A DNA stretch of 33,998 bases from Candidatus Thalassarchaeaceae archaeon (GTDB lineage Archaea; Thermoplasmatota; Poseidoniia; Poseidoniales; Thalassarchaeaceae), in NCBI GenBank assembly GCA_030751995.1, contig JASMFB010000007.1, positions 1 through 33,998 of the forward strand. The letters are read 5' to 3'. The position numbers and the translations under genes were made by a program. The notes below the pieces were generated by a model, which saw only the letters and a list, made by a program, of their open reading frames with translations, did no database searches and was not told where the DNA came from. Shown here piece by piece: positions 662 to 14,305 of this stretch (position 1 is the first letter of the stretch; each line of letters opens with the position of its first letter).

Positions 662-1390
662 TCACTCCTCTTCATTACCCACCCATTGGGTCACTAAATC
701 AGGTAATATTTCGCCGGCGCGCCCCTGGTGAAACTCATCGAAAAAATCAACATTCTCAGGTGGATCTAGGTTCACTCCAATACAATAGGCGCCCCGCATT
801 TGTGCAATTGCTAACAGGCCTGCCGCAGGATATACATGACCACTCGTCCCAATCGCGATGAACACATCACATTCAAACACGGCAGCATTGATTTTCTCCA
901 TATCAAAAGGCATCTCGGTGAACCAAACGATGTGTGGGCGCAATCGACCCGTTGGACATTCTTGACAAGTGACGAAATCATCTTGGAGATGAACACCCTC
1001 CATCGCTTCGACAACCACTTCACACAATTCACAACGTAATTTTCGCAATTCTCCGTGCATGTGAATGAGATTGTTGGAGCCCGCCCTTGAATGCAAATCA
1101 TCGACATTCTGTGTAACCAACAACAGATTCTCACCAAGATACTCTTCTAGATCGACAAGTGCATCGTGGGCGGGATTGGGAAGAACATCGAGTAACTGCC
1201 GCCTTCGCCCCTGATAGAAACTCCAAACCAACTCAGGATCTCGCCTCCAACCCTCTGGTGTTGCCACATCTTCTATTCGATGTTCTTCCCACAAACCTTC
1301 AGCAGCCCTGAATGTACGGATGCCAGACTCGGCACTGATTCCCGCCCCTGTAAGGACAACAACTCTAGTGTTTGGATTCAACAATTTCAT
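662..1390 (-). CDS. cobB: NAD-dependent protein deacylase, Sir2 family (CobB-like, class III)
   Basis: This is a 242-residue sirtuin that removes acyl groups from lysine using NAD. The NAD-binding motif GAGISAESGIRTFR is at residues 15-28, TQNVDDLH at 93-100 and the catalytic His in HMHGEL (H112). Four zinc cysteines form two CxxC pairs (C120/C123 and C142/C145), followed by GTSGHVYPAAGL. The Y59-x-x-R62 pair in SFYQGR matches the residues that give SIRT5/E. coli CobB-type enzymes desuccinylase and demalonylase activity, so the substrate may be acidic acyl-lysine; that is an inference. The start overlaps the stop of the upstream nucleotidyltransferase by four bases, which implies translational coupling. 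Confidence is high for the family and moderate for acyl preference. Confidence 0.95.
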   Translation of the reverse strand: MKLLNPNTRVVVLTGAGISAESGIRTFRAAEGLWEEHRIEDVATPEGWRRDPELVWSFYQGRRRQLLDVLPNPAHDALVDLEEYLGENLLLVTQNVDDLHSRAGSNNLIHMHGELRKLRCELCEVVVEAMEGVHLQDDFVTCQECPTGRLRPHIVWFTEMPFDMEKINAAVFECDVFIAIGTSGHVYPAAGLLAIAQMRGAYCIGVNLDPPENVDFFDEFHQGRAGEILPDLVTQWVGNEEE

Positions 1391-2166
1391 TCCACCCCGA
1401 CGACATCCCGGATAGCATCCAATGTCTCGGGGGTTTTTATTCCCATCATTTCGATTTCCGTGGCGATCGGCACGCCATCAACACCCAAACCAGCAGTCAG
1501 ACAGCCACGAACCATCTCATTGGGAAAACCGAGTTCACCTGAATTCGTCGCATACCGACCTTTCTCAATATCATATAATTCATCATGCAACCCGCGCAAC
1601 ACAACATCCAGGGCCGAACGACTCACCCAGTACGCACCGATGTTAGTTTCACCATTTTCGGGCATCTCAGCCCCCTCGAGATGGGTCTCAATAGAGCCAC
1701 AAACGACACCTTCAGAATCCCTGAGTAAAGGAGCATATGGATTGTCCATAATGACGGTCGCTAATGTGAACCCGAGATCTTGTTGGATATGAACATCCAA
1801 CGACCCCTCAATTGTTTCCGTGCGCACCAACGGCTGTGTCCCAAATGACACATAGACATGTTCGATTGGAGCCAGTAGATGTTCAAGCGATTCATACACA
1901 GCATTTCCAGTACCCAAGGCGCACTCCTGGACAACGATTCGACACTCCAATCCAGATAGGGCTTCTTCGTACTCCTTTTCGCGACCTGGCGGCACTACAA
2001 CGATGAACTGTGAAAACTCCAGATTACCACCGAGCAAACCTTCGATGACAAACCGCGTCGAAGGCATTCCTCCGACCTCAAGAAGCGGTTTGTGTGTGGT
2101 CACACCACCTGCCATCATTCGACTGCCTTTGCCGCCGCATAGGAGGACAGCAGCAAGCACGGCCAT
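1387..2166 (-). CDS. Sugar nucleotidyltransferase-like protein (GlmU N-domain type)
   Basis: This 259-residue protein has the NTP-transferase (GT-A/Rossmann-like) fold. The N-terminus AAVLLCGGKGSRMMAGG corresponds to the nucleotide-binding LxxGxGxRM loop and is followed by a KPLLEVGG segment. Later come VVVPPG, an ALGTGNAVYESLE segment like the GTAxA region of GlmU and MurNAc-P uridylyltransferases, and TNIGAYWVSRSAL, which matches the N-x-G-x-Y region of sugar-1-phosphate nucleotidyltransferases. There is no hexapeptide acyltransferase domain, so it is a single-domain enzyme. The sugar and nucleotide cannot be read from sequence. It is the first gene of a two-gene unit with the Sir2 deacylase (4-base overlap) and is divergent from prefoldin alpha. 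Both genes are inserted against the direction of the surrounding ribosomal/secretion block. Confidence 0.8.
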   Translation of the reverse strand: MAVLAAVLLCGGKGSRMMAGGVTTHKPLLEVGGMPSTRFVIEGLLGGNLEFSQFIVVVPPGREKEYEEALSGLECRIVVQECALGTGNAVYESLEHLLAPIEHVYVSFGTQPLVRTETIEGSLDVHIQQDLGFTLATVIMDNPYAPLLRDSEGVVCGSIETHLEGAEMPENGETNIGAYWVSRSALDVVLRGLHDELYDIEKGRYATNSGELGFPNEMVRGCLTAGLGVDGVPIATEIEMMGIKTPETLDAIRDVVGVE

Positions 2167-6559: not shown

Positions 6560-7573
6560 TCAGCGCCATCCCGCTTCAATAGCAGAACGAGCGCCATCCA
6601 CAATCGAGTCTTCAACCGGAATCCAGTCAAGTCCCAACTCTTCAGTTGCCGGGCTAGAATCATATTCACAGGAGGTTCCAATATTCCGTTTGACCCAACT
6701 CATAGTTAATTGTGGATGGAAGATGGACATTACGTAACTCAATGACTTAGGCAAGACCATACGCGGCCATTTTCTTTCTGGAATTTCTTTCCGCAGTACA
6801 GCATTCACTTCCGGCATCCACATCGAGGAGTTGAACACGATGTATCGCCCACCATCTTTGCCTTCTGTCAGCGCGCGCACGTGTGCAGAAGCTACATCTC
6901 GAACATCGACGATATTCATGTGCATCTTTAGCAACACAGGTGGTTTCCGCTTCAGAAGATGATCGATGATGGTCATCGAACCCTTCAGATGGCGCTTCGA
7001 CATGACCGGCCCAAAGACGATGGATGGATTAATGGAAACATATCGGGGCTTTTCAGCATCCGATTTGGATGCAACCCATTCTCTGGCCAGTCTCTCCGCC
7101 CCTGCCTTTGCGAATCCATACGCATTGGATTCAACCGATGCATTATCACACCAATCCGAGTTTGAGAACGTTTGACCGTCCTTCGTCCCATTTCGACGTA
7201 CTGCGGCCACAGAAGAAGTGTGGATGAAACGCGAAACCCCCCCAGCAGCATCGATTGCATCGAGTAGGTTTTGCGTTCCTTGTATCGAGGGATCAACCAC
7301 CTCTACTTGTGCATCCTTGGCCCCCACATAGAGAGATGCAGCACAATGGATGACATCTCCACAACCTGCGACAGCCGCATCTACAGCACCCCTCTCTAGA
7401 AGATCCATTTTCACAATCTCTAAATTTTCAGCGCCAGGTAACCCCTTCAGGTGTTCTGCATTCTCTGGATTTCGCACCGTGGCACGAACTGAATGTCCCT
7501 GTGCCAGTAGTTCACGAACAACATGTGAGCCAATGAATCCGGCGGCGCCAGTGACCAATACCGTAGCAGCCAT
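6560..7573 (-). CDS. NAD(P)-dependent epimerase/reductase (extended SDR, dihydroflavonol-reductase-like)
   Basis: This 337-residue Rossmann enzyme has the cofactor motif TGAAGFIGSHVVRELL at the N-terminus. ATVRNPENAEHLKGLPG follows, as in dihydroflavonol 4-reductase/cinnamyl-type SDRs, then the VIHCAASLYVG segment, HTSSVAAV with the catalytic Ser, and the Tyr-x-x-x-Lys pair in NAYGFAKAGAE. NPSIVFGP and NIVDVRDVASAHVRAL complete the substrate domain pattern. The ATG at 7573 (MAATVLVTG) is preferred to 7597, which would add eight residues before the Rossmann strand. It lies 25 bases after the Gfo/Idh gene on the same strand, so the two probably act on the same sugar or alcohol. The substrate is unknown. 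Confidence 0.85.
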   Translation of the reverse strand: MAATVLVTGAAGFIGSHVVRELLAQGHSVRATVRNPENAEHLKGLPGAENLEIVKMDLLERGAVDAAVAGCGDVIHCAASLYVGAKDAQVEVVDPSIQGTQNLLDAIDAAGGVSRFIHTSSVAAVRRNGTKDGQTFSNSDWCDNASVESNAYGFAKAGAERLAREWVASKSDAEKPRYVSINPSIVFGPVMSKRHLKGSMTIIDHLLKRKPPVLLKMHMNIVDVRDVASAHVRALTEGKDGGRYIVFNSSMWMPEVNAVLRKEIPERKWPRMVLPKSLSYVMSIFHPQLTMSWVKRNIGTSCEYDSSPATEELGLDWIPVEDSIVDGARSAIEAGWR

Positions 7574-7598
7574 ACTTCCGACTTCGACACATCTCACA

Positions 7599-8873
7599 TC
7601 AATTAATCGTCACAACCCGCTCTTCCCGCATGGCCGTATCCGCGGCGTAAGCAATGAGATGACTGTTGATGGAATCAGACAAGGATGTAGTCGAGAGAGA
7701 TCCCCCTTCGCCACGGATGAGGCTGAGGAAATCAGCGACCAAGCGCACATCTCCACCCCCATGGAGATCCCCTTGAAGACCAATCTGAATCTCTTCGACA
7801 ACTGATTCAGAACCACCAACAGCACCCGGTTTTGAGATAGTAAATTTCCCTTCCATCATGTCACCACAGATGTCACCCTTGGTTCCTGTGAGTTGAATTC
7901 GACGCGTTCCATCAGCAGTATTCGTGACCATGTCATGTGTGGCTACACAACCATCCTCAAATTCGATAATGACGGATTGACGATCTACAACATCATTGTC
8001 ACAATGCCAAACACACCGCCCGTAATCAGAGGCCGCAACATGTGTTCGCATTGCATCCTCGCCAACCTCAACCCCCTGCTCATAATTCGACTCACCAGCT
8101 AGTGCATAGAATGGCCACCATCCATTGTCAACATGATGGCGTATTGCTGAATATTCACAGTCGCGCTCGATGGAACAATCGTTGCAGTGCGGGGCCGAAC
8201 CTTCTGGAGCATTGTCCAAAGTGAAGAAATGACGCCCACCGAATGAAGCAACCTTCCTTGGTCTGACTCCCGTCTTCATCCAACAGATCAAATCCAAATC
8301 ATGACAACATTTTGCTAACAACATTGGATTGGTTTCTTGACGCCTCCATTTACCACGAATGAAGGCCACCGCCATGTGGTGGTAAGAGACATTCTCAGTT
8401 GTGTGAATATGCATGATCTCACCAATTTCACCATTGGCAACTCGCTCCTTGATGGCAGCATAGAATGGTGCATATCTAAGCACGTGGCAAATAACAACTC
8501 TACGTTCCGTCCGCTCCACTGCCGCTTCAAGCAACCTCAATTGTTCCGCATCAGGTGCAATCGGCTTTTCCAACAACACATCATATCCAGCCTCGAGTAG
8601 CGGAAGCGTAGTTTCGATGTGAATCTCATCCATCGTCCCGTTGATAGCCACATCCGCAAACTGTTGCACTGCGGCCAATGATTCAGCATTCTCAAAGCAA
8701 TTCTCAGGCGGAACTCCGAACCGTTCAGCATAGCGGACACGCCGCACTTCATCTGGTTCAGCAATTCCAACAATCTGCAATTCATCCGGGTGCGAATCCG
8801 CGTAGGTTGCATACCCCACCCCACGGTGTCCAAGCCCAACCAGAACTGCAGTAATCACAGCGAACCCATACAC
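7599..8873 (-). CDS. Gfo/Idh/MocA-family NAD(P)-dependent oxidoreductase
   Basis: This 424-residue protein has an N-terminal Rossmann domain (AVLVGLGHRGVGYATYADSHP, then VGIAEPD). The signature LLEKPIAPDAEQL follows, with Lys in EKP, then HVLRYAPFY and the second domain containing KCCHDLDLICWM, whose His is the usual general-acid/base site. A cysteine-rich loop (CNDCSIERDCEYSA) sits in the middle and is typical of one branch of the family, possibly binding metal. These enzymes oxidise or reduce sugars and inositols; the substrate here is not evident. The ATG at 8873 is used; a GTG at 8858 giving a start nearer the Rossmann strand is possible. The gene begins the -strand unit that continues with the SDR, pyrF and a small membrane protein. 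Confidence 0.88.
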   Translation of the reverse strand: MYGFAVITAVLVGLGHRGVGYATYADSHPDELQIVGIAEPDEVRRVRYAERFGVPPENCFENAESLAAVQQFADVAINGTMDEIHIETTLPLLEAGYDVLLEKPIAPDAEQLRLLEAAVERTERRVVICHVLRYAPFYAAIKERVANGEIGEIMHIHTTENVSYHHMAVAFIRGKWRRQETNPMLLAKCCHDLDLICWMKTGVRPRKVASFGGRHFFTLDNAPEGSAPHCNDCSIERDCEYSAIRHHVDNGWWPFYALAGESNYEQGVEVGEDAMRTHVAASDYGRCVWHCDNDVVDRQSVIIEFEDGCVATHDMVTNTADGTRRIQLTGTKGDICGDMMEGKFTISKPGAVGGSESVVEEIQIGLQGDLHGGGDVRLVADFLSLIRGEGGSLSTTSLSDSINSHLIAYAADTAMREERVVTIN

Positions 8874-9885: not shown

Positions 9886-11130
9886 TCAAGCGAACATTAT
9901 CGCGAATTGCGCGACTTCCAAAACCCCATTCGCAATTTCAAGTGCAAATTTCAACTCATTCTTCCACGATGAATACTCAGTTCGTTGTTTGTCCAGAGAA
10001 GCATCTCTGCGCGCAGTATTCGAAATATCCCATTCCTCTAAGATTGCACCAAGCTCTTCTGGTTTGAAATCAGACTGAAGCAGCACCCCACATTCATCTG
10101 TCACAATCTCCGGCATACCACCTACCGCAGTCGCGATAGCAGGAATTCCATACGAGAATGCCTCCATGATTGAGACGGGCAACCCTTCACTACTGCTTAC
10201 GTTGACAAAGACATCCGCAGAATTCTCTTCAAACCATTTCAGAACGTCTTCATGCGCGACCTGACCCATTAGGTCAACCTCAACATTTTCACCAACCTCG
10301 CCTGTTTCAACCAACACCTTCGAGAGAGTCTCACCACCACCGATGTGTGTCCATTTGATCTTACGTTGAGTATGTTTGAGTGCCGCAGCAATCAGATGCA
10401 CACGCTTGACTGGGAGTAGAGAGGATACCGATACCACATGCAAACGATCGTCATTCGACGCCGCCGCAGGTTCATGTTCATCCACACCGAGGCGCCCCAA
10501 TTCCACTTTATGGGCAAACTTAGGATATTTTTCACGAAGATGCACAACTCCTGCTTCCGAATCGGGCAAAATCGCATAGAGTTCCCTCAGCGCGAATCCC
10601 TGCATTGGCAAGTATTTCTTTCCAACTCTTTCAGCATAGATATCGCCCCCGTGCCCTCGTGAAAATGAAACGATTTTCTTGTGACGGCGGGAAAGCTCAG
10701 CAGCGACACTTGCTCCACGATTTAGCCAGAATGATACAGCCCCATCGATTTCTGAGAATCGCGAACCCAACACCTTCTCAATCGAATCACATGTAATCCG
10801 AATTTGTGCTGCCTCACCAATCACTTCTCTGGGCGCGAAAGGTCTTGAGGCAAGCACCTCTCTCAACACACCCTTCACATTGATGCCTGCACCCAAACGG
10901 CCCAGAAACCCTCTCCGATTCCATTGGCTCAACATTCTCGCATGCACATCGGTGAGCACCTCACAATTCTCGGGTATTTCTCGAGTCATTTCACCGAGTG
11001 GATTCATGGTTGTAGGCAATAGAAGAATTTTATCGAAATGCGGTGCAAGGTCACGAATTTCATTGCTGACGAACGACTCACCAGGGGGATATGGCCAATG
11101 ATCGGTGAGGTAGAGAATCGTATTGCCCAT
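9886..11130 (-). CDS. Glycosyltransferase, GT-B fold (GT4 / group 1)
   Basis: This is a 414-residue predicted cytoplasmic enzyme that adds a sugar from an activated donor to a glycan or lipid-linked acceptor. The N-domain starts NTILYLTDHWPYPPGESFVSNEI. The C-domain shows HVVSVSSLLPVKRVHLI, GGGETL and the hallmark donor-binding stretch DVFVNVSSSEGLPVSIMEAFSYG with the E-x7-E motif, followed by PAIATAVGGMPEI. The usual N-terminal GGxE loop is not obvious. It sits 3 bases after the GHMP kinase and is the last large gene of the sugar operon starting at 14305. Donor and acceptor cannot be inferred; with a 4,6-dehydratase upstream, a deoxy- or amino-sugar is plausible. Confidence 0.9.
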   Translation of the reverse strand: MGNTILYLTDHWPYPPGESFVSNEIRDLAPHFDKILLLPTTMNPLGEMTREIPENCEVLTDVHARMLSQWNRRGFLGRLGAGINVKGVLREVLASRPFAPREVIGEAAQIRITCDSIEKVLGSRFSEIDGAVSFWLNRGASVAAELSRRHKKIVSFSRGHGGDIYAERVGKKYLPMQGFALRELYAILPDSEAGVVHLREKYPKFAHKVELGRLGVDEHEPAAASNDDRLHVVSVSSLLPVKRVHLIAAALKHTQRKIKWTHIGGGETLSKVLVETGEVGENVEVDLMGQVAHEDVLKWFEENSADVFVNVSSSEGLPVSIMEAFSYGIPAIATAVGGMPEIVTDECGVLLQSDFKPEELGAILEEWDISNTARRDASLDKQRTEYSSWKNELKFALEIANGVLEVAQFAIMFA

Positions 11131-11133
11131 TCA

Positions 11134-12486
11134 CTACACCTCTCTGTTTGGCCACAACGGTGACCAATTCATATCACCTTCTGGTCCCGACATGATGGAC
11201 ACGCCTTGCCCGGGGTTGTGTACGAGAACCGACTCCTGCGCTCCACGCGAGAACAGATCTTGATGATCTTCCATAGTAATCTGCAACCCCTCAAGACAAT
11301 CCTCACGGACAAGCGCCAACAAGTTTCCACCGAAACCGGCCCCCATGACTTTCACGCCCATCACACCTTCACAACCGCGACACAAATCTGCAATCTGATC
11401 CATCTGTGGGGTTCGAATTCCATACAGTTCACCAGCATCTCTCCAGGCCTGATTCATGTAACTGCCCAACGTGGTCGCCGCCCCATTAGTGTGGAGCAGA
11501 ACTTGAACTTCCTGAGACCGTTGCAATTCACCGCGTGCAAACGCCAACCAGTTATTGATTCGTAATTCACCTTCACCAGCGGAGTGAAGTGCGGGATATT
11601 TCCTCATGACTTCGTCAGAAACGTCAGCAACATCGACAACGTCGGGTAAATCGTCAGGAGAATTTGCCAACATATGGGGGATTACATCGCGTGCCGCCAA
11701 GGCACGTGCATTGAACGCCAATTGCGTCGATCGACTCTTGTCAGAGGGGTGAGTGAAGATTGTTACGAATCTGTAATCAGCCAACCGTGTAGATGAATCG
11801 AGGGATTGGGCACTAAATGGCCGAAATGTCAATCTCAACATCTGACCCTCTTCTGCGAACATCATTGTGGCATGATCCATCATCCCGCCGCGTGTGCCCA
11901 CATACCATTCTGCATTCGCAGTTTCTTCGACCAACGAACTTTGTTCTAATGACAAATCATTGGCCAGACGAATTGCAATCGAAGCACATGTTGCCAATGC
12001 CGAGGAAGATGAAGCCCCTGAAGCCGGCGGAATATTCGAATCAATCAACAGGTCGAACCCGACCTTCACATCATGATGCATCTGTGCATGATGAACAGAG
12101 CCACGCACATAATTTGACCAATGAGCAGCAGGTGTGCCACAAGCATCCAACCAATCTATCCAACCATTCTCTTCAGTAGCGAGTGGCGGCGCATTTTCAT
12201 TCAAATCTAATTCACAATCTTCGAAGTCTCCGACATTGAACAGCCGAATCATCGAATCGCTTCGGGGGGAGATTACGGCATTCATTAGAGCCGAATCACT
12301 GGCAAATGTCACCAATTCAGGGGTGAACACTTCCCAATAATCAGTATGGTCTGCGGCCAAACACAGGCGCGCAGGCACCCGAATTACCCAACAATTTCTA
12401 TTATCGAACCGCTCCGAGGCCGCCCCAACCAATTGCTGAATATCAGAACCCGTAAAATCATCCATAGGTGTTGGCGCAATCATCAT
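11134..12486 (-). CDS. GHMP kinase, galactokinase-like sugar kinase
   Basis: This 450-residue protein is related to galactokinase and other sugar-1-kinases. The N-terminal signature RVPARLCLAADHTDYW corresponds to the galactokinase RxxLIGEHTDY motif, with GE replaced by AD. The ATP loop PPASGASSSSALAT follows, then YVGTRGGMMDHATMMF with the catalytic Asp, matching the galactokinase VGxxxGxMDQ region. Near the C-terminus is KVMGAGFGGNLLALV, the third GHMP motif. It probably phosphorylates the anomeric position of a sugar so that a nucleotidyltransferase can activate it. Divergence at the HTDY box suggests a substrate other than galactose. The start overlaps the epimerase stop by four bases. 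Confidence 0.88.
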   Translation of the reverse strand: MMIAPTPMDDFTGSDIQQLVGAASERFDNRNCWVIRVPARLCLAADHTDYWEVFTPELVTFASDSALMNAVISPRSDSMIRLFNVGDFEDCELDLNENAPPLATEENGWIDWLDACGTPAAHWSNYVRGSVHHAQMHHDVKVGFDLLIDSNIPPASGASSSSALATCASIAIRLANDLSLEQSSLVEETANAEWYVGTRGGMMDHATMMFAEEGQMLRLTFRPFSAQSLDSSTRLADYRFVTIFTHPSDKSRSTQLAFNARALAARDVIPHMLANSPDDLPDVVDVADVSDEVMRKYPALHSAGEGELRINNWLAFARGELQRSQEVQVLLHTNGAATTLGSYMNQAWRDAGELYGIRTPQMDQIADLCRGCEGVMGVKVMGAGFGGNLLALVREDCLEGLQITMEDHQDLFSRGAQESVLVHNPGQGVSIMSGPEGDMNWSPLWPNREV

Positions 12487-13310
12487 GCCACCCCCATTTC
12501 AGTTTTCACAGCCCCCCAAACAGTTTCGACCATGTCCAACCATTCGCTATCTGTAGATTCAACATCCACATATCCTGAGAGATCATTTGGGTCAGCATCA
12601 ATGTGAACAATGTCAGCCCCCGAACAATTGCGAACCGCATCAGCTACTTCCGACACAGTCACCGATTGTCCCGAACCAACTGGGATGATGTTTGAAAATG
12701 GTGCAATGGAAGGTGGTTGTAGAACACACCCACCAATCACATCTAGAACAGTACCTATGCCAACGAGATCCTTGATTGAATCTCCAGCCCCCATGACAGT
12801 AATTTGACCACCAGATGCTGCTTGTCTAGCGAATACGCTGATTAAGCCTTGAGCGCGTCCATTCACACCCACACCCTGCACCGAAGAAATCCTCAGAACA
12901 GTCACTGGATGTGCATCATCAGCACAACTCAACAAGACCAATTCTGCCGCTGCTTTCCCTGCACCATACGAATCGAACGGTTCCACGGCGGAATCAACAC
13001 CGAATACACCTTCGTCACGCGAATGAACTCGAATGCTACTGGCGAAGATGATGTGGCATTGATCTAGGGTTGAAGTCGCACCAACAACCCTCTGCGCCAA
13101 TTCCAACGCAACGCTATCCGCTCCGCGATCACCCGGCAACGGCCCGGCCAAATGAACAACTGTTCGACAATCATTCTCTCGAAGGTGTGCGCTTAGCACA
13201 TCGGGTGTATCCAAGGCACGCAAATCCACCGCAAACCCAGCATCACCCAATTGAGCGAGCAAATGGGCCCCGATGAAACCGGAAGCACCGGTCACGCCAA
13301 TCATGGACAT
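12483..13310 (-). CDS. NAD-dependent sugar epimerase/dehydratase (extended SDR)
   Basis: This 275-residue Rossmann protein has the N-terminal cofactor motif IGVTGASGFIGAHLLAQL, VVHLAGPLPGD, the Ser strand IIFASSIRVHS and the catalytic pair in SYGAGKAAAEL (Tyr-x-x-x-Lys). VTVLRISSVQGVG and the KDLVGIGTVLDVI segment are typical of nucleotide-sugar epimerases. It is shorter than most (about 300-340). The ATG at 13310 overlaps the stop of the upstream dehydratase (TGATG), and the 3' end overlaps the kinase start by four bases, so translation is coupled on both sides. The likely role is modification of the sugar made by the upstream dehydratase; the substrate is not determined. Confidence 0.88.
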   Translation of the reverse strand: MSMIGVTGASGFIGAHLLAQLGDAGFAVDLRALDTPDVLSAHLRENDCRTVVHLAGPLPGDRGADSVALELAQRVVGATSTLDQCHIIFASSIRVHSRDEGVFGVDSAVEPFDSYGAGKAAAELVLLSCADDAHPVTVLRISSVQGVGVNGRAQGLISVFARQAASGGQITVMGAGDSIKDLVGIGTVLDVIGGCVLQPPSIAPFSNIIPVGSGQSVTVSEVADAVRNCSGADIVHIDADPNDLSGYVDVESTDSEWLDMVETVWGAVKTEMGVA

Positions 13311-14305
13311 CACTCCAAACCAAGCATGACAATACATTCGCGGATGTGCTCAACAAGTTCAGCATCCTCAAACATTTCAGCGTGAGAAGAATTGTATTCA
13401 GAAAGATCCACCTTTTGCATGTTCGAAGCAGGTGACCAATCACCGACGGGTGGTGCAACAACGTAGTGCGAATCTGTTTCATACAAGCGCGCGATTTCGT
13501 CTGAAGTCACTAAATCCTCATGCAACTTTTCTGCACGAATGAGGCCGCGAACATCGACATCGAAGCCACCTTCTCGTAGATTCATACCCTTGAACACAGA
13601 GAGCAATTGACCCAAACTGAATCCTTTCATCTTGAGAACGAAAATCTCGCCACCTTCGGTCATCTCAACAGCGTCGAGTACCAGAGACGCAGCTTCTGGG
13701 ATTGGCATAGCAAATCGCGTGATTTCTTCATCGCTAATCCAAACTTGGCCGCGCTCCTTGATGCCCTTGACCATGGCCGGAATAACCGATCCTCGCGAAC
13801 CGAGAACGTTGCCAAATCGAACACACGCACAGAGCATATCACCGGTTGAATTTCCATCGAGAGTCAACTTTTCTGCAACATATTTCGAAGCACCCATTGT
13901 TGAAGTGGGTGAAACAGCCTTGTCCGTGGAGACCATGAGCATCATCTGAACACCCGCATCCTTTGCTAGATCAACGACGTTTTGCGTCCCGAGAATGTTT
14001 GTTTTCACGGCCTCAATTGGATTCTGCTCACAGATGAGAACGTGCTTCAGTGCCGCCGCATGAATCACAATATCCACATCGGTTTGAAAGGCGCGCGCAA
14101 GAGATTCGCGATCGCGCACATCTCCGATGATGAAAGTGATATCATCCTGACCGACTAATTCCTGTTGGAAATAGAAATGTTTGGAGTCATCACGGGAGAA
14201 AATGGTGATGTGTTTTGGCTTGCGGTCCATCAATTGACGGACAACTTCGGAGCCGATGGAACCCGTTCCACCAGTCACCAATACGTGCGCATCTTCAATC
14301 CGCAT
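13310..14305 (-). CDS. UDP-sugar 4,6-dehydratase, PseB/FlaA1/CapD type
   Basis: This 331-residue enzyme is of the polysaccharide biosynthesis protein family, which converts UDP-GlcNAc to a 4-keto-6-deoxy sugar. Motifs are VLVTGGTGSIGSEVVRQLM at the N-terminus, TIFSRDDSKHFYFQQEL, GDVRDRESLARAF and VIHAAALKHVLICEQNPIEAVKTNI. The active-site stretch is STDKAVSPTSTMGASKYVAEKL, with the Asp-Lys and Met-x-x-x-Lys pairs in place of the classical Tyr-x-x-x-Lys. VRFGNVLGSRGSVIP follows. The ATG at 14305 has GGGGTGGA just upstream and removes a 44-residue extension outside the family. It begins the four-gene sugar operon. Downstream products of this reaction in other organisms are FucNAc, QuiNAc or pseudaminic-type sugars. 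Confidence 0.93.
   Translation of the reverse strand: MRIEDAHVLVTGGTGSIGSEVVRQLMDRKPKHITIFSRDDSKHFYFQQELVGQDDITFIIGDVRDRESLARAFQTDVDIVIHAAALKHVLICEQNPIEAVKTNILGTQNVVDLAKDAGVQMMLMVSTDKAVSPTSTMGASKYVAEKLTLDGNSTGDMLCACVRFGNVLGSRGSVIPAMVKGIKERGQVWISDEEITRFAMPIPEAASLVLDAVEMTEGGEIFVLKMKGFSLGQLLSVFKGMNLREGGFDVDVRGLIRAEKLHEDLVTSDEIARLYETDSHYVVAPPVGDWSPASNMQKVDLSEYNSSHAEMFEDAELVEHIRECIVMLGLE

Follow-up and report, generated by a model that had tools for sequence, protein, structure and literature searches.

We found that a compact four-gene unit of a Candidatus Thalassarchaeaceae archaeon probably turns an amino sugar into a cell-surface 6-deoxy sugar, and that the nucleotidyltransferase expected to activate this sugar is encoded some distance away on the same contig. 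The window, i.e. the whole stretch of 33,998 nucleotides that was analysed, comes from an archaeal genome of 1.65 Mb that is 71% complete and whose nearest named relatives belong to Candidatus Thalassarchaeaceae/Poseidoniales (Marine Group II). It contains the following genes:

13310..14305 (-): NDP-HexNAc 4,6-dehydratase; short, Met-type member of PF02719 with intact GGTGSIG, TDK and MGASK motifs
12483..13310 (-): short SDR that probably follows the dehydratase as a 4-ketoreductase or epimerase; S91 and Y115xxxK119 conserved
11134..12486 (-): GHMP sugar-1-kinase, probable N-acetylhexosamine kinase; the kinase half of a kinase-nucleotidyltransferase enzyme
9886..11130 (-): GT-B/GT4-type glycosyltransferase (GT), the probable final-sugar transferase
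1387..2166 (-): GlmU-like sugar-1-phosphate nucleotidyltransferase (NTP) of 259 amino acids; corresponds, as a separate protein, to the C-terminal half of the fused enzymes

The most likely route leads from HexNAc via HexNAc-1-P, UDP-HexNAc, a 4-keto-6-deoxy sugar and 6-deoxy-HexNAc to a surface glycan. The GHMP kinase would phosphorylate free N-acetylhexosamine (GalNAc or GlcNAc) at C1, and the NTP would convert the resulting HexNAc-1-P into UDP-HexNAc. From this, the dehydratase would form the 4-keto-6-deoxy sugar, which the short SDR would reduce (or epimerise) and the GT-B enzyme would, as a 6-deoxy sugar, transfer to the glycan. We hold, with slightly better than even confidence, that a 6-deoxy-N-acetylhexosamine destined for a cell-surface glycan is the product of the unit and that free amino sugar can enter it through kinase and NTP; all substrates, the direction of flow, the use of UTP as donor, the stereochemistry of the product and its surface destination are inferred. 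The preliminary description had stated that no known complete pathway fits these genes, which is not supported, as the kinase has a partner NTP that is fused to it in relatives and free at 1387-2166 in the window. With this NTP, which would supply the activation step, the set reads kinase, pyrophosphorylase, 4,6-dehydratase, reductase and transferase, and, apart from a few odd features, the pathway follows known chemistry. The archaeal surface sugar that had been suggested stays plausible.

Gene anatomy, linkage, gene fusion, protein families and folds and the conservation of catalytic residues were established by sequence and structure comparison. As described before, the four genes overlap or nearly touch. 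All lie on the minus strand; dehydratase and SDR have 1 nt in common (TGATG), SDR and kinase overlap by 4 nt (ATGA), kinase and GT are separated by a 3-nt gap, and a purine-rich, SD-like stretch lies ahead of every start. The dehydratase ORF extends from an ATG at 14305 to a stop at 13310. A GTG start would lengthen the frame to 14437, but we place the start at the ATG, since the orthologues are 331 amino acids long and begin there. Pfam assignments agree with the earlier family names: the dehydratase belongs to Polysacc_synt_2 (1.1e-87), the short SDR to Epimerase (3.7e-16), the kinase has GHMP N and C domains and the glycosyltransferase belongs to Glycos_transf_1. A Gfo/Idh/MocA gene (7599-8873) and an HpnA-like SDR gene (6560-7597) were rejected as parts of the unit; both are present in two genomes (G132, G144) without the dehydratase. 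Viral carriage found no backing in IMG/VR, where no relatives were detected.

Linkage was followed in 194 genomes of the archaeal order, with orthologue cut-offs chosen by bit score. Dehydratase orthologues were found in 12 of these genomes and kinase orthologues in 14, and 10 genomes have both (Fisher p = 4e-12, uncorrected for shared ancestry); in these ten, the two genes are neighbours wherever contigs let adjacency be seen. Dehydratase, short SDR and glycosyltransferase are linked in the order, and 10 of the 12 dehydratase genomes have the kinase with them. All ten genomes with an SDR orthologue above 180 bits also carry the dehydratase. The GT is common to eight of the ten genomes with dehydratase and kinase; in the remaining two, the contig stops short of the GT position (G165) or a different GT is present (G063). 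The arrangement is more than chance, because its order and spacing recur in the same-genus loci L031-L034 and in the sister-genus loci L037/L038. The genes are therefore not unlinked in relatives, an outcome that would have counted against the preliminary description. In one same-genus genome (G038), the SDR is broken into two overlapping ORFs (L031:992-1582 and 1579-2001), through either a frameshift or an assembly error.

The modules can nevertheless separate, as three arrangements indicate: in G069 (L035) dehydratase and fused kinase are immediate neighbours, lacking an intervening SDR; G016 has dehydratase, SDR and GT, and a search for the kinase found none; and L040 encodes a fused kinase-NTP, a PhyH dioxygenase and a GT of the same family and has no dehydratase. 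In this last locus (L040:13937-17127), the genes for the PhyH-type dioxygenase and the fused enzyme share 4 nt, and the GT lies nearby. We propose that the dioxygenase may tailor the same kinase-NTP product in a different way.

The NTP gene lies 9 kb away and adjoins prefoldin and ftsY. The kinase of sister genera (L035-L038, L040) carries a GlmU-like NTP fused to its C-terminus, and the same fusion occurs in three bacterial phyla, Acidobacteriota, Poribacteria and Armatimonadota. The window NTP is 52-60% identical to the fused archaeal NTP domains, and the C-terminus of the window kinase can be aligned to the linker between the fused domains. In the window itself, kinase and NTP are separate genes and do not form one bifunctional chain. 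Since the entire fused cluster adjoins prefoldin and ftsY in L036-L038, the window NTP occupies the place of that cluster. Splitting of a fused enzyme seems the simpler history, because bacteria and both of the archaeal kinase subclades have the fusion; the free NTPs of two genera (g1 and g8) group together (100/100). Alternatively, the kinase may have been lost in some lineages or re-acquired later. The NTP is present in 13 of the 14 kinase genomes and occurs without the kinase in 11 sampled genomes. At nine loci (L105-L110, L112-L114), a GlmU-like NTP stands beside prefoldin/ftsY in genomes where the kinase was not found. A reverse domain order, with the NTP at the N-terminus and the kinase at the C-terminus, characterizes a separate bacterial group (L149, L150, L154, L155, L192, L194) that includes an Armatimonadetes MAG, a Chthonomonadia MAG and other bacteria and has the motif ARLQAH(F/L)AD(Y/F).

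Bifunctional enzymes of this kind have precedents. Bacterial FKP is a bifunctional fucokinase/GDP-fucose pyrophosphorylase. In zebrafish, glucuronokinase and UDP-GlcA pyrophosphorylase form a fused bifunctional enzyme (PMC3938481). Like both, the fused relatives of our kinase unite a GHMP kinase and a nucleotidyltransferase on one chain, leading from free sugar to NDP-sugar. Unlike in the zebrafish enzyme (PMC3938481), the kinase is N-terminal and the NTP C-terminal; unlike in the zebrafish enzyme and FKP, the kinase is galactokinase/GalNAc-kinase-like, the NTP is GlmU-like and the two are distant genes in the window. Fused kinase/pyrophosphorylases are already known; what differs here is the order of the domains, the types of kinase and NTP and the split.

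The kinase is not a galactokinase. It scored 121 bits against the galactokinase equivalog TIGR00131, below the curated cut-off of 226.65, whereas L044, a genuine galactokinase of this order, reached 300 bits. In a tree of 48 kinases, which included E. coli GalK and L044 and did not include GALK2, it falls into its own 100/100 clade (stem 1.05), whose other members are all archaeal relatives or bacterial fusion proteins and which lies apart from both galactokinases. The sub-cut-off score and the separate clade rule out a galactokinase identity, so that the firm grouping with true galactokinases that would have contradicted the preliminary description did not appear. Membership of the GHMP superfamily is clear, with both Pfam domains above cut-off and SSSS, D204 and GAGFGG conserved. 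With the GHMP motifs and the catalytic Asp204 intact, kinase activity is expected. Human GalNAc kinase was the top match by phmmer, profile and Foldseek (AlphaFold model pLDDT 91.7), galactokinases following closely in Foldseek; GALK2 was favoured over GALK1 only modestly (101 vs 91 bits). The kinase keeps the GHMP motifs and the catalytic Asp of GALK2 (PDB 2a2c), its best sequence and fold match, but is only about 20% identical to it and, unlike GALK2, has a partner NTP. These best matches point to a GalNAc kinase-like protein, a probable N-acetylhexosamine kinase. In the literature searched, we found no usable published residue map of GALK1/GALK2 sugar contacts and no paper accompanying AbGHMP (PDB 9ulx). 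The window's own genome also encodes part of a GHMP kinase (L208:3-584, minus strand; motif GNPSDGYNG), divergent beside a nucleotidyltransferase (L208:464-1348, plus strand; G000:C66:16500-18500), possibly a second sugar-1-kinase/pyrophosphorylase pair.

The dehydratase scored 294 bits against PF02719 (gathering threshold 20.2) and has this family and the NAD motif in common with PseB, FnlA, CapE and the Bacillus CapD-like protein 6bwc. T127-D128-K129 and M137-K141, the TDK / Mx3K active site, are invariant, and the combination of TDK and Met-type MGxxK is as in FnlA and CapE. Its scores remain below the curated cut-offs of the PseB (254.9 vs 407.75 bits) and FnlA (197 vs 730 bits) equivalogs, and its closest solved relatives are mostly UDP-GlcNAc dehydratases. 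In 6bwc, which we take to be Pen of the Bacillus thuringiensis Pen/Pal pair, SSNAA replaces the STDKA of the dehydratase; a Pen/Pal-type split dehydration is ruled out by the intact TDK.

The real oddity of the system lies in the NTP. Its profile matched S. pneumoniae GlmU at 1e-29, the next family following at 7e-11, and its best 36 Foldseek matches were all GlmU. In GlmU, D102 and N227 are the Mg2+ ligands and E152 and N167 hold GlcNAc (S. pneumoniae numbering). The NTP has the fold of the GlmU uridylyltransferase domain (PDB 1g97, 1hm8) with its GxGxR and K loop, its Q and GT nucleotide contacts and its E/N GlcNAc contacts (E160 and N175, equivalent to E152 and N167). It differs from GlmU in being without the left-handed beta-helix acetyltransferase domain and in the metal site, where T110, within a GTQP motif, aligns with D102 and K244 with N227. 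GxGxR, K26, Q80, G85-T86 and the residues contacting the sugar remain in place. Throughout the archaeal and bacterial family, the first metal position is T, S, A or V and never Asp, and the lysine at the second is invariant. The family has replaced both GlmU metal ligands while retaining the sugar contacts, and its activity is uncertain because of this replacement. The GlmU matches, the kept GlcNAc contacts and the neighbours of the bacterial fusions (NagB-like isomerases, a ROK kinase, a GlmU-like NTP-hexapeptide protein, ack/pta, PGM/PMM phosphohexomutases and MFS transporters) favour an N-acetylhexosamine as the sugar. We propose, tentatively and as possible rather than probable, that a trans-domain, kinase-coupled NTP family makes NDP-amino sugars with Lys and Thr in place of the GlmU magnesium ligands, the bifunctional enzyme having been split in Thalassarchaeaceae.

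Three other readings were weighed against a single amino-sugar route. Kinase and NTP could make one NDP-sugar and dehydratase and SDR another from de novo UDP-GlcNAc, both serving one glycan. GlmS is present in 14 of 17 genus genomes, the window's own included; de novo hexosamine therefore exists, and the kinase would be a second entry and not the sole one. This agrees with two sugars, and the idea stays alive because the modules are separable, kinase-NTP and GT occurring without the dehydratase in L040 and dehydratase, SDR and GT without a detectable kinase in G016. The unit has a single glycosyltransferase, however, and kinase and dehydratase are closely packed and strongly co-occurring, and we regard two sugars as unlikely. 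Less probable still is that the partner is no pyrophosphorylase but a sensor or a protein of other chemistry, the kinase-made sugar-1-phosphate entering metabolism differently. The loss of both metal ligands across the family and the retention of the NTP without the kinase in 11 genomes would fit this, but the preserved binding residues and the invariant K244 suggest an altered rather than a dead active site.

The third reading concerns the kinase motif PARLCLAADHTDY, in which, as noted before, AD occupies the galactokinase GE position ahead of HTDY. Kinase and NTP might recycle a 6-deoxy amino sugar freed by glycan turnover: AD is confined to the archaeal clade that has the dehydratase, and a change from E to D at a putative O6-contact residue (the matching galactokinase residue presumably contacts the sugar O6) would fit the loss of the 6-OH. 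AD occurs in 10 of the 11 archaeal kinases of the clade (window included), carried by the window lineage, L035, L037, L038 and L127. L036, by contrast, has GEHTDY despite an adjoining dehydratase and SDR, and GE or GG is found in archaeal relatives that have no dehydratase close by and in all bacterial fusions. AD is a conservative change within one archaeal clade, and recycling is improbable. As L036 and remoter relatives retain GE, we rejected AD as strong evidence of an unusual sugar; the hint seen in it earlier is weak and not family-wide.

Marine Group II archaea were described in 2019 as uncultured (PMC6864105). A defined 6-deoxy amino sugar route, if true, would offer a testable prediction on their surface glycans and on their use of environmental amino sugars. 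An NTP family that dispenses with the usual metal ligands and is conserved from archaea to Acidobacteriota would, furthermore, test how far the GlmU fold depends on its metal site.
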